This document shows positions 13,307-16,836 of a DNA stretch of 64,000 bases, piece by piece. This stretch comes from Acaryochloris sp. CCMEE 5410. GTDB lineage: Bacteria; Cyanobacteriota; Cyanobacteriia; Thermosynechococcales; Thermosynechococcaceae. Position 1 is the first letter of the stretch; every line of letters begins with the position of its first letter. A model generated the notes under the pieces. That model was not told the DNA's origin. It made no database searches and worked only from the letters and a program-made list of their open reading frames with translations. The stretch lies in contig NZ_AFEJ02000001.1 in NCBI RefSeq assembly GCF_000238775.2, positions 1,116,001-1,180,000 of the forward strand, in the 5' to 3' direction. A program made the position numbers and the translations under genes.

Positions 13307-13987
13307 TTAAGTCAGCGATCGCTTCTTACGCAGTAACAACGGCATCGCCGACAGCACCGCTAAGCAGGTACAGGCAATCACCAAGGGCCAAGGACCTTTA
13401 CCATGCATGACATCATTCCCGGCAACCCCGATCCAGGTATAGGCAATCACCCCAGGAATAATTCCAATCAGCGTTCCTAAACTGTAGGGCAACCAATGAA
13501 TCGTGGTCATGCCAAACAGGAAATTCACTAAATTAAAGGGAGAAATAGGCGCAAAGCGAACAATCAGGACAAAGCTAAATGGATGCTGGAGCACGGCTTG
13601 GTTAAACGTACAGAGCAGCTTGCGATCGCGCACACGTCTCTGGGCCCAATCTAACAATAGGTAACGGGCCATCCAGAAGGCTCCCATGGCTCCCAAGGTG
13701 GCTCCTGCTAGGGATAAAAAGCTCCCCCACAGCAGGCCAAACAGGACACCACCCACGATGGTCAAAATGACTCCTGGGACCCCCAGCACTGTGGCGACAA
13801 TATGCAGCAGGATAAAGATGATCGCCCCCCATAAACCGTGGGATTGAACAAACTCCACCAAATGCATCTGGTCAAACAGCAAGGGAACATACCGGATGAC
13901 GAAGGGAAGCAACAACACCCCTACCAATCCTGCTAGTAATCGTCTGCGACCTTTCACTTGCTGACGGCTGAGTCCTTCTTGCAGCAT
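13307..13987 (-). CDS. VTT-domain (TVP38/TMEM64) membrane protein
   Basis: This 226-residue membrane protein of the DedA/VTT superfamily has the core G-LFGLLWGSFLSLAGATLGA, then FNQAVLQHPFSFVLIVRFAPISPFNLVNFLFG, in which the R-P--PFNLVNY-type segment is the family mark. The family includes lipid scramblases and proteins of membrane homeostasis. It overlaps the upstream VTT gene by one base (TAATG), so the two are probably translationally coupled. It is the last gene of the arsM operon. No signal peptide; the first helix begins near residue 15. Confidence 0.85.
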   Translation of the reverse strand: MLQEGLSRQQVKGRRRLLAGLVGVLLLPFVIRYVPLLFDQMHLVEFVQSHGLWGAIIFILLHIVATVLGVPGVILTIVGGVLFGLLWGSFLSLAGATLGAMGAFWMARYLLLDWAQRRVRDRKLLCTFNQAVLQHPFSFVLIVRFAPISPFNLVNFLFGMTTIHWLPYSLGTLIGIIPGVIAYTWIGVAGNDVMHGKGPWPLVIACTCLAVLSAMPLLLRKKRSLT

Positions 13988-14772
13988 TAACTTAGCTCTT
14001 GCTCAACCGCGGTGCCAGTTTCAGGGACGGCTTCTGCCAAGGCTTTGCGGGCCACTTTCGTCACATAGACGGTCACTAGAACTGTGGCAATTAGACCGAC
14101 AACTTTAATAGTTAAATCAATGACCGGATCAGTAGGTTGATTACTAGTGCCAACGGTCGCTAGATCAGTAGCTAAAGATCCTATGTATACATACATAATC
14201 GTGCCTGGAATCATACCAACAGAACCAAGGAAGTAATCCCTTAAAGAGACTCCGGTTACCCCCATCCCATAGTTGAGTAAATTAAAGGGGAAGATTGGTG
14301 ACAGCCGAGTTAGAAAAACAATCTTTAATCCTTGCTTACCCACGGCCCGATCAATCGCTGCAAATTTATCATTGCCCTCAATTTTTTTGGAGATCCATCC
14401 TCGAGCTACATACCGACCAACGAGGAAAGCGATAGTAGCACCAATGGTGGCACCAATAAAGACCAAAATAGATCCTTGAATAACCCCAAAGACAACCCCT
14501 GCTCCCAGAGTCAAAATAGAACCTGGTAAAAAGGCAACGGTGGCGACGATATAGATACCGATATAGGCAATTGCACCGACTGGCCCTAAAGCCTTAACCC
14601 ACTCAAGGGCATCTAGTAGGAGTTGTTGTAGATACTGTTGGAGCTGCTGCAGAAGTTGTAGAGGATTAAACCCGCCCCCATCTGCGGCCCAAGCAGGCGA
14701 GGCCGTAATCACTAAGAAGGCCACGGCTGCCAGTAAAACAGGTTGAATTTTTTTCCAGCGACGAAGATTCAT
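13987..14772 (-). CDS. VTT-domain (TVP38/TMEM64) membrane protein with N-terminal signal
   Basis: This VTT-superfamily protein has 261 residues if it starts at 14772 (MNLRRWKKIQPVLLAAV). The frame extends further to 14880, but that stretch overlaps arsS and is not hydrophobic in the right place. From 14772 the N-terminus is a good signal peptide ending at PAWAA. The VTT core follows, with LGAGVVFGVIQGSILVFIGATIGA and FLTRLSPIFPFNLLNYGMG. It lies 28 bp downstream of arsS. A role in moving arsenosugar, arsenolipid or methylarsenical products is an attractive guess from context only. Confidence 0.85.
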   Translation of the reverse strand: MNLRRWKKIQPVLLAAVAFLVITASPAWAADGGGFNPLQLLQQLQQYLQQLLLDALEWVKALGPVGAIAYIGIYIVATVAFLPGSILTLGAGVVFGVIQGSILVFIGATIGATIAFLVGRYVARGWISKKIEGNDKFAAIDRAVGKQGLKIVFLTRLSPIFPFNLLNYGMGVTGVSLRDYFLGSVGMIPGTIMYVYIGSLATDLATVGTSNQPTDPVIDLTIKVVGLIATVLVTVYVTKVARKALAEAVPETGTAVEQELS

Positions 14773-14800
14773 AGATTTACCTTTAAAAATGTGTGTGATG

Positions 14801-15811
14801 TCATAACAAAGAACCACCGCAGCTTGATCCACTCCCTGCGGTGCAGCCATAGCAATAGGGCGCTGTTTTAACGTCTTCAATCAGATCAAGACTGCCAGCC
14901 GCTAACAGTTTGGCCACTGTCAATCGCTCCCCCTGCGGGGTGGTGGCCGGAATCTCTTCCATTTGGTTAAAATCGCAGTCATAGATATTGCCCAGATAGT
15001 CCACGGATAGCTCATTGCGGCACATTAAATGCTCAACGGTCGAGTCATTATAGTGACCTTCCAAAAACTGCAGATAGGGCTGATGAAGTTGCCGATGTTC
15101 TAGATGAAACTTGGTGCGGCCGATGGGGAGATTGGTAATTGCAAACAGATGGTTAAACGTAATCCCAAACTGCTCCCCTAAATGTTGTTTATAGGCCAGT
15201 TCTAAGGGCTGCTGATCCGGCGCTAGGGCAAAGTCCAGAGTCGTTGGCACTTGCGGGTTATACACCAAGTCCAACACCAGATTAGGATCAGAGCCATAGC
15301 CCAACTGATTCAGCCGCTGGAGCGCTTTGATCGAGCTGTCAAAAACGCCATCACCCCGCATTTTGTCTACATTTTGCTCCAGGTAACAGGGCAAGGAAGC
15401 CACCACTCGTAGTTGATGCCGAGCAAAATAGTCCGGTAAATCTTCAAACCCCAGTTCAAAGTAGATCGTTAGATTTGAGCGAACAATCACTTCCTTGTTG
15501 TGTGATCGAGCTGCCTCGACTAAGGGACGAAAGCCATAATTCATCTCCGGGGCACCCCCCGTTAAGTCTACGGTTTCAATCTGAGGGAATCGATGAATCA
15601 ATTCAACCAACTGCTCACAGATTTCTGGGGATAGCTCTTCGGTGCGCTTAGGGCTAGCCTCAACATGGCAGTGGCTACAGGCTAAGTTGCACCGTCGCCC
15701 TAAATTAATTTGCAGCACCGTAATCTTATGCTTTGTCAGGGGGGCAGCCAGCTTTTGGGCAAACGGAGTGAGGGTTGAGTTAGTTGATACAGTCATAACA
15801 GCTCGATCCAC
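14801..15811 (-). CDS. arsS: Arsenosugar biosynthesis radical SAM protein ArsS
   Basis: This 336-residue radical SAM enzyme has the iron-sulfur motif CNLACSHC near residue 42, then DLTGGAPEMNYGFRPLV. The C-terminal DUF3641 region ends with CYGCTAGSGSSCGG, which may bind an extra cluster. In cyanobacteria ArsS acts after ArsM and adds a 5'-deoxyadenosyl group to dimethylarsenite on the way to arsenosugars. It sits 18 bp downstream of arsM on the same strand. The length is usual for the family, and the Cys motifs are intact. Confidence 0.92.
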   Translation of the reverse strand: MDRAVMTVSTNSTLTPFAQKLAAPLTKHKITVLQINLGRRCNLACSHCHVEASPKRTEELSPEICEQLVELIHRFPQIETVDLTGGAPEMNYGFRPLVEAARSHNKEVIVRSNLTIYFELGFEDLPDYFARHQLRVVASLPCYLEQNVDKMRGDGVFDSSIKALQRLNQLGYGSDPNLVLDLVYNPQVPTTLDFALAPDQQPLELAYKQHLGEQFGITFNHLFAITNLPIGRTKFHLEHRQLHQPYLQFLEGHYNDSTVEHLMCRNELSVDYLGNIYDCDFNQMEEIPATTPQGERLTVAKLLAAGSLDLIEDVKTAPYCYGCTAGSGSSCGGSLL

Positions 15812-15829
15812 AACAACAAACGGCGTCGT

Positions 15830-16807
15830 TTAGCAACAGCCTCCACCGTCGTAATACCAAGTCGAGTCGGTGATCATAATTGCTTGGGGATGGGCTTTGG
15901 CGAGTTTGGCTGCCGTCTTGTCACACACGGCGAGGGGAATGCCTAAACTCAAAATGTGACCGGCCTTGTCATCAAAATACTCTTCAGGTCCGGTATAAAC
16001 CGCCATCTTGCCCGTAAACACACAAGCCCCATCCTCGGCAATATCTACCTTAAAGGAAACGGAGTCTAAGCTCTCTAATAGCAAATGCTGATCTAGCTTG
16101 TAGTTTTCCTGATCGAGCAGGCGATAAGGGCGACGGGCTCGAATTTCAACTTGTCCAAAGCCAGCATGGATAATGCGCTGAACATATTGTTCGTAGGTTA
16201 GAGCGCCCGACAAACACATGGCTCGTAACCGATCATCTTGCTGTAAGTGTTCTGGAATGGGGCGAGTGGAAATGGGGTCACTCATCACCAAGCGACCACC
16301 GGGTTTCAGCACTCGATAGGTTTCTTGCAGGGCGCGAGACAGATCTTCGGGCTCAAAGATATTGAAGAGGCAGTTTTGAGCGACAACATCCACGGAGTTA
16401 TCAGGAACCGGCAGGGCAAAGGCGTCGCCTTCTTTAATCGTGACAAAGCTGGTGTCGAACCACTCATTTTCTTCGGCGGCAATTTCCAGGTTGCGGGCAG
16501 CCGCTTTGCGCATTTCATCCACTGGATCTACGGCAACCACAGCGCCGGGGCGACGGGAGAAGTAGGAAAATTGCAGGGCTTCCAAGCCACCGCCCACGCC
16601 AACATACAGAACCGTAGGGTTACCCGATAATTCCGTCGGATGAACGGTTGTACCACATCCATAGTTCATTTCCTGCATTTGCGGAGGCACCACCAGGCCC
16701 GGCAGTTGCAAAGGAGTACTTTGGACACAACATAAGCCCACTTCTGGGGTTTCAGCGACTTGACTGTAAAACTCTGCTGCGGATTCTAAATACGTCATAT
16801 TGGTCAA
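15830..16807 (-). CDS. arsM: Arsenosugar-type arsenite methyltransferase ArsM
   Basis: This 325-residue SAM-dependent methyltransferase has motif I at VLYVGVGGGLEALQ and a later VLKPGGRLVMSDPIS segment. Candidate arsenic-binding Cys are seen in NYGCGT, AQNCLFN and RAMCLSG, with further Cys in GLCCVQS and at the C-terminus (GGGCC). The length and the C-terminal extension match the ArsM subtype paired with ArsS. It probably methylates arsenite using thiol reductants. The first ATG gives MTNMTYLESAAEF; the second ATG, three codons on, is an alternative. It is the first gene of an apparent operon arsM-arsS-VTT-VTT, with a palindrome 14 bp upstream. Confidence 0.92.
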   Translation of the reverse strand: MTNMTYLESAAEFYSQVAETPEVGLCCVQSTPLQLPGLVVPPQMQEMNYGCGTTVHPTELSGNPTVLYVGVGGGLEALQFSYFSRRPGAVVAVDPVDEMRKAAARNLEIAAEENEWFDTSFVTIKEGDAFALPVPDNSVDVVAQNCLFNIFEPEDLSRALQETYRVLKPGGRLVMSDPISTRPIPEHLQQDDRLRAMCLSGALTYEQYVQRIIHAGFGQVEIRARRPYRLLDQENYKLDQHLLLESLDSVSFKVDIAEDGACVFTGKMAVYTGPEEYFDDKAGHILSLGIPLAVCDKTAAKLAKAHPQAIMITDSTWYYDGGGCC

Positions 16808-16820
16808 CGATGGATTTGTA

Positions 16821-16836
16821 ATGAATGGTCATTCAT
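16821..16836. promoter_or_regulatory. Palindromic candidate operator upstream of arsM
   Basis: ATGAATGGTCATTCAT is a perfect inverted repeat of two 7-bp arms (ATGAATG/CATTCAT) spaced by GT. It lies 14 bp before the arsM start. The TGAA--TTCA style resembles ArsR/SmtB-family operators, which suggests control by arsenite or another metal. No arsR gene is in the window, so any regulator would act in trans. The function is inferred. Confidence 0.5.

Follow-up and report, generated by a model that had tools for sequence, protein, structure and literature searches.

The genome of the cyanobacterium Acaryochloris sp. CCMEE 5410 carries an operon in which the arsenic genes arsM and arsS are followed by two genes for membrane proteins of the VTT family, referred to here as VTT-A and VTT-B. 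The operon lies in a stretch of 64,000 nucleotides (contig NZ_AFEJ02000001.1, positions 1,116,001 to 1,180,000), which we call the window. ArsM converts arsenite to dimethylarsenite and ArsS adds a 5'-deoxyadenosyl group, according to the published chemistry of the two families. Why should two VTT proteins accompany these enzymes? A first-pass annotation, made from the sequence alone, suggested that they transport arsenosugars or arsenolipids or handle them at the membrane. In this work, we find that VTT genes are recurrently linked to arsS, that VTT-A is co-distributed with ArsS, and that both VTT proteins belong to the COG0398 group. We tentatively read the locus as an arsenosugar biosynthesis operon with both VTT genes in the pathway, where their products most likely shift an arsenosugar phospholipid, or an intermediate linked to a lipid, between membrane leaflets; this is the reading we lean towards, without holding it firmly.

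Linkage and co-distribution of VTT genes with arsS

Of the 386 genomes in the phylum sample, 175 have an ArsS that scores above the cut-off, 57 of them in family f19 (picocyanobacteria) and 118 outside it. The neighbourhood was examined in all 175, with some stretches ending at contig ends and some reaching only 1.5 kb to each side. Outside f19, 27 of the 118 genomes have a same-strand VTT gene no more than 1.5 kb from arsS; they represent 10 of 28 families, and 10 of these 27 genomes have two VTT genes near arsS. By family, the link is present in 10 of 11 genomes of f11, 5 of 6 of f12, both of f23 and 4 of 16 of f6. The first-pass annotation had named a survey of arsM-arsS neighbourhoods as the check on its proposal, and rarity of the link elsewhere as grounds for giving it up; the link instead recurs, in cyanobacteria and also on plasmids of other bacteria.

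The gene orders seen are arsS-VTT, arsM-arsS-VTT-VTT, VTT-arsM-arsS-VTT-MerA, VTT-MerA-arsM-VTT-arsS and arsM-arsS-GT-VTT-VTT-MerA, where GT denotes a glycosyltransferase and MerA a MerA-like flavoprotein. The occurrence of the same members in shuffled orders argues for a functional set. In a panel of 80 genomes, 24 VTT-A genes have ArsS no further than 3 kb away when 0.13 would be expected under random placement, so chance adjacency is rejected, and 43 lie near a MerA-like gene (0.10 expected). In the reverse survey, ArsS was present in the stretch at 10 of the best 80 named VTT-A loci.

The panel was picked by hand and comprises 67 of the 115 ArsS-positive and 13 of the 14 ArsS-negative class genomes outside f19; G332 and all of f19 were omitted. 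A gene counted as VTT-A if profile A2 scored it at 240 bits or more, and close second copies were kept; with six genes at 172-219 bits excluded, this gives 79 VTT-A genes in 66 of the 80 genomes. VTT-A occurs in 63 of 67 ArsS-positive versus 3 of 13 ArsS-negative genomes, and the same figures hold for the glycosyltransferase family TIGR04283; those for TIGR04282 are 63 of 67 versus 2 of 13. The MerA-like gene follows ArsS more weakly (43 of 67 versus 3 of 13). In the five families that contain both ArsS-positive and ArsS-negative genomes, VTT-A is missing in 8 of the 10 ArsS-negative ones (f1 3/3, f6 1/1, f7 3/4, f13 1/1, f2 0/1), the f7 exception being an assembly of 1110 contigs. Among the ArsS-positive genomes of these families, VTT-A is present in 2 of 3 in f1, 8 of 10 in f6 and all in the others, with at most four ArsS-positive genomes lacking it.

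Clusters with arsS are also carried by plasmids. An ArsS match over at least 80% of the query was found in 51 plasmid records, 46 from Burkholderia glumae (one of which was read) and one from each of five other organisms, and four of these six organisms have a VTT gene in or near the arsS cluster. The Acinetobacter portensis plasmid carries arsS-(VTT fused to a flavin adenine dinucleotide (FAD) oxidoreductase)-DUF547-TIGR04283-TIGR04282-methyltransferase, with the fusion directly behind arsS. On the Cupriavidus plasmid, the VTT gene is separate and lies two genes past arsS (arsM-AhpD-like-arsS-MerA-like-VTT-TIGR04283-TIGR04282-S-methyl-5'-thioadenosine (MTA) phosphorylase). In B. glumae, a VTT-flavoprotein fusion lies about 10 kb from arsS, while on the plasmid of the cyanobacterium Pseudanabaena galeata two VTT genes flank arsM (VTT-MerA-arsM-VTT-arsS). 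The three proteobacterial VTT proteins form their own clade.

Subfamily and partners of the VTT proteins

The COG0398 group (TVP38/TMEM64, YdjX-like) is defined by a VTT domain, a sequence nearer YdjX than YqjA, a first re-entrant tip free of acidic residues and the loss of one basic residue at the second, and it is described as a putative phospholipid flippase group (PMC10127716). Both VTT proteins fall into it on sequence. The profile of VTT-A (A2) scores YdjX at 134 and YqjA at 2 bits, and that of VTT-B (A1) at 117 and -6 bits; in one alignment, both proteins keep residue R130 of YqjA and lack E39, D51 and R136. AlphaFold models were weak (mean predicted local distance difference test values of 63.8 for VTT-B and 75.9 for VTT-A), and nothing was drawn from them. 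Foldseek gave no match in the PDB at E <= 0.001, and the VTT-A profile gave none among PDB chains at E <= 0.1.

VTT-B forms a separate clade (tree support 99/98 and 100/99), with long branches that call for caution. Its profile finds it in 9 of the 80 panel genomes with a clear gap in scores (243 versus 152 bits), and in 7 of these 9 it stands in the arsS operon behind VTT-A; the exceptions are G060, with no partner within 1.5 kb, and G280, where it precedes an MTA phosphorylase gene. It is also in the operon at the named loci L188, L189 and L253. A truncated VTT-B is found as the second VTT copy in the arsS operon of G121, and a broken one after arsS in G070, where VTT-A is on another contig. 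VTT-B occurs in 9 of 67 ArsS-positive and none of 13 ArsS-negative genomes (p 0.34), which is too rare for a test of co-distribution. Other pairs are built differently: G076 and G093 have VTT-arsM-arsS-VTT-MerA, and in many Nostocales a second gene resembling VTT-A stands next to GT and MerA. Pairing of VTT genes is thus recurrent, and its second member varies. The association of a VTT pair with the arsS operon that the first-pass annotation pointed out is real, but its two members differ in kind: VTT-A is broadly co-distributed with ArsS and VTT-B is a rare second clade. In G280 (L276:1501-3091), VTT-B lies 7 bases upstream of the MTA phosphorylase gene and behind a gene that, by eye, resembles sulfate adenylyltransferase; MTA phosphorylase is also found in the arsS clusters of Cupriavidus and B. 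glumae.

The VTT genes are not the sole recurrent partners, and the first-pass annotation, right about these, overlooked two more. Clustering of neighbouring open reading frames brought out a MerA-like FAD oxidoreductase at 68 loci and a glycosyltransferase at 32. The glycosyltransferase representative passes TIGR04283 (287.9 bits, cut-off 182), a family that NCBI calls arsenosugar biosynthesis glycosyltransferase, a name presumably based on gene context. The flavoprotein representative (L218) passes NF004991 (876.2 versus 620 bits); its score with TIGR02053 lies below the cut-off (405 versus 454.45 bits), and for this one representative the identity of mercuric reductase MerA was rejected. 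In Coleofasciculus S288 (L196), arsM-arsS-GT-VTT-VTT-MerA stand in a single row. Across the panel, ArsS lies within 3 kb of 24 of the 79 VTT-A genes, a MerA-like gene of 43, TIGR04283 of 9 and any of the three of 63; the MerA-like set includes one gene just below the cut-off (G066, 609.7 versus 620 bits).

TIGR04282 and TIGR04283 matches share one open frame of 432-502 amino acids in G060 (G060:C23:511253-512515) and also in G118, G036, G011, G002, G066, G033 and G045, which by its sequence is a fusion of the two putative arsenosugar transferases. Broken TIGR04282 remnants in the ArsS-negative genomes G183 (C1:179342-179828) and G167 (C3:311443-312017) look as if a pathway were decaying there. 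A second type of ArsM, of about 310-420 amino acids, replaces the usual one near arsS at L064:5661-6863, L083:2030-3220, L097, L108, L045 and L068; the L064 protein is nearest to NF040538, below its cut-off (334.6 versus 500 bits). At L143 (G385), an arsS with two in-frame stops stands beside an intact ArsM.

The locus and a candidate operator

The four genes lie on the minus strand, and the gaps of 18, 28 and -1 bp given in the first-pass annotation are correct with the start codons that it used.

Table 1. Features of the arsM-arsS-VTT operon, in window positions
Feature	Position	Strand	Evidence
arsM, arsenosugar-type arsenite methyltransferase	15830..16807	-	NF038099, 579.9 bits (cut-off 400)
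arsS, radical SAM enzyme	14801..15811	-	TIGR04167, 418.9 bits (cut-off 300); PF12345 and PF04055
VTT-A, 261 amino acids, YdjX-like (COG0398-type)	13987..14772	-	PF09335, 105.3 bits (cut-off 33.9)
VTT-B, 226 amino acids, second VTT protein, separate clade	13307..13987	-	PF09335, 79.4 bits (cut-off 33.9)
Perfect palindrome (7-2-7), candidate operator just upstream of arsM	16821..16836		uniqueness and conservation

Both enzymes and both VTT proteins score above the cut-offs of their families (PF09335 is the Pfam VTT_dom family). The CX3CX2C radical SAM motif of ArsS (P0002) reads CNLACSHC, and its C-terminus carries CGGSLL with the cysteine. The VTT-A stop and the VTT-B start overlap as TAATG. 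For arsM, which could start at TTG 16807 or ATG 16798, the latter seems likelier because a relative begins with MTYLE; for arsS, ATG 15796 is likelier than GTG 15811, and the first gap would therefore be 33 bp. The N-terminus of VTT-A looks by eye like a signal peptide ending in an Ala-X-Ala site (window 14772-14680, P0003 residues 1-30), as it does at L055, L056 and L125 and does not in other relatives, paired or unpaired.

A convergent MAPEG gene lies downstream of the operon and a divergent response-regulator gene upstream. The nearest named loci, L188 and L189, from Acaryochloris metagenome-assembled genomes, carry the same set of four, spaced by 18, 30 or 35, and -1 bp. The genome of 8.09 Mb has nine VTT-domain matches. 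Its TIGR04283 and TIGR04282 genes are outside the operon, at G000:C1:2951931-2953254, ArsM and ArsS being adjacent, and the MerA-like gene lies on a different contig (G000:C2).

The palindrome upstream of arsM is the sole site in the genome at up to one mismatch, so that this search gave no second site to indicate a regulator. It is kept at L188 and L189 although the flanking bases differ. At up to two mismatches, the window holds two sites against 0.43 expected, a number that 3 of 100 shuffles reach. Uniqueness and conservation suggest the palindrome as a candidate operator.

Possible roles of the VTT proteins

Under the favoured reading, the product of ArsS would be carried on to arsenosugars, probably by the TIGR04282 and TIGR04283 glycosyltransferases and the MerA-like flavoprotein encoded elsewhere in the genome, whose genes sit beside the same VTT genes in other genomes. 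Clusters with MTA phosphorylase (Cupriavidus, B. glumae), TIGR04282 and TIGR04283 suggest phosphorolysis, activation and transfer of arsenoribose. VTT-A and VTT-B would then pass the arsenosugar phospholipid, or an arsenosugar intermediate linked to a lipid, from one membrane leaflet to the other, with VTT-B as a specialised partner of VTT-A, possibly in a hetero-oligomer. Movement of an arsenosugar lipid is our best single guess because arsenolipids are reported for Synechocystis (by the title of Xue 2014 in the reference list of PMC12159101) and because VTT proteins belong to a lipid-scrambling superfamily. A more extensive version, which we consider rather unlikely, has a complete arsenolipid pathway whose membrane and redox functions are supplied by the VTT pair and the flavoprotein, and the Slr0305 group of VTT proteins would then be an arsenosugar-lipid factor. 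Its order would be ArsM, ArsS, an MTA-phosphorylase-like step, TIGR04282, TIGR04283 and leaflet transfer by the VTT pair, with TIGR04282 (CofC-like) activating arsenoribose phosphate and TIGR04283 transferring it to a lipid acceptor.

Several observations weigh against a dedicated role in this pathway. No VTT gene stands beside arsS in any of the 38 genomes of family f7 or in the arsS stretch of any of the 57 picocyanobacteria, 32 of them covered to 1.5 kb on each side; the picocyanobacterial ArsS is divergent. One of the 27 links, that of G070, is the broken VTT-B. VTT-A lies near a MerA-like gene more often than near ArsS, and 16 of its 79 genes are more than 3 kb from any of the three partners, which leaves an arsenic-only role for every VTT-A unsupported. 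VTT-A is retained in the ArsS-negative genomes G118 and G177, both well assembled, and G155 (1110 contigs), and the Fisher value of 1.5e-7 for VTT-A and ArsS is overstated, related genomes having been counted as independent. The VTT domain occurs in 13 of 14 control genomes and ArsS above cut-off in 1 of 14, so the VTT fold is not specific to arsenic. The arsS clusters of Thiodictyon and Hymenobacter have no VTT gene in the stretch read, and around the VTT gene on a plasmid of PCC 7002 the stretch shows no gene annotated for arsenic. The arsM of Synechocystis (slr0303) is not induced by arsenic (PMC4010505).

As the flavoprotein is the commonest neighbour, redox-linked transport of soluble arsenicals has to be taken seriously as a rival, if an unlikely one: VTT protein and MerA-like flavoprotein might form a redox and transport unit for water-soluble arsenicals or metalloids generally, the flavoprotein reducing a pentavalent arsenical and the VTT protein exporting or importing it, with no lipid involved. 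Beyond the proximity of the two genes, this would fit the VTT-flavoprotein fusions of Acinetobacter and B. glumae, a type that is the commonest fusion reported for COG0398 (PMC10127716), the predicted transporter-like VTT fold with re-entrant helices (PMC7818093) and a DedA protein reported in indium extrusion (PMC8679861), although PMC10127716 places that protein in COG1238. It sits poorly with an operon that has no flavoprotein, and the acidic residues associated with proton-driven transport are absent from COG0398 proteins (PMC10127716 and our alignment).

Another rival holds that VTT-A scrambles lipids in general to maintain membranes or thylakoids, a role proposed for the Slr0305 group, and stands near arsS by hitch-hiking; this appears improbable. 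The three ArsS-negative genomes that keep VTT-A would agree with it, and the absence of Slr0305 from Gloeobacter has led to its being tied to thylakoids (PMC3836016, PMC13174344); yet the excess of linked genes over random placement, the several gene orders and the clusters in other phyla all argue the other way, and in the window's own family the ArsS-negative genomes G089, G179 and G247 give no match to the VTT-A profile. Membership in the VTT_dom family and a glycosyltransferase among the partners might also bring to mind undecaprenyl-phosphate flippases of the DedA/UptA type that recycle the carrier of the glycosyltransferase. We hold this to be very improbable: VTT-A scores 26.7 bits with the UptA model, whose cut-off is 250, VTT-B does not match it, and with three of the four YqjA residues absent from both, a COG0586 identity was rejected.

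Among known systems, E. coli ydjX-ydjY-ydjZ-ynjA also has two VTT paralogues of the DedA family in one row with an AhpD-like gene, but neither arsM nor arsS occurs in the stretch read, and a ferredoxin-type gene separates its VTT genes. The ArsL of the arsQML arsinothricin cluster is, we assume, unlike ArsS. That cluster likewise unites arsM, a radical SAM gene and a membrane protein gene, but its membrane protein, ArsQ, is a permease related to GntP, and its product is an amino acid (PMC8552651). The fusion of a VTT protein with a pyridine nucleotide-disulfide oxidoreductase in COG0398 matches the subfamily and flavoprotein type seen here; its published interpretation is aerobic metabolism, and that paper does not mention arsenic (PMC10127716). 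Among the matches listed in our literature search, most subscription journals being outside its scope, none links VTT, DedA or TVP38 proteins with arsenosugar genes. We take slr0304 of Synechocystis to be arsS and, from the tag numbers, slr0305 to adjoin it. With arsM (slr0303, PMC4010505), arsS and an Slr0305-type VTT gene, that organism resembles the window, differing in having one VTT gene instead of an A and B pair. Its enzymes SsArsM and SsArsS perform the first steps of arsenosugar synthesis, and their chemistry is established (PMC8552651, PMC12159101). We read VTT-A as a member of the Slr0305 group, an assignment in which the Slr0305 sequence itself was not compared.

In the literature consulted, neither the steps that follow ArsS nor the entry of arsenosugars into membranes as arsenolipids has a gene assigned to it, and the small set of genes that recurs with ArsS provides candidates. 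The finding also challenges the reading of Slr0305 as a thylakoid-biogenesis protein. For the widespread, uncharacterised VTT proteins of COG0398, which are relatives of human TMEM41B, it offers an idea about a substrate that can be tested in a simple bacterium.

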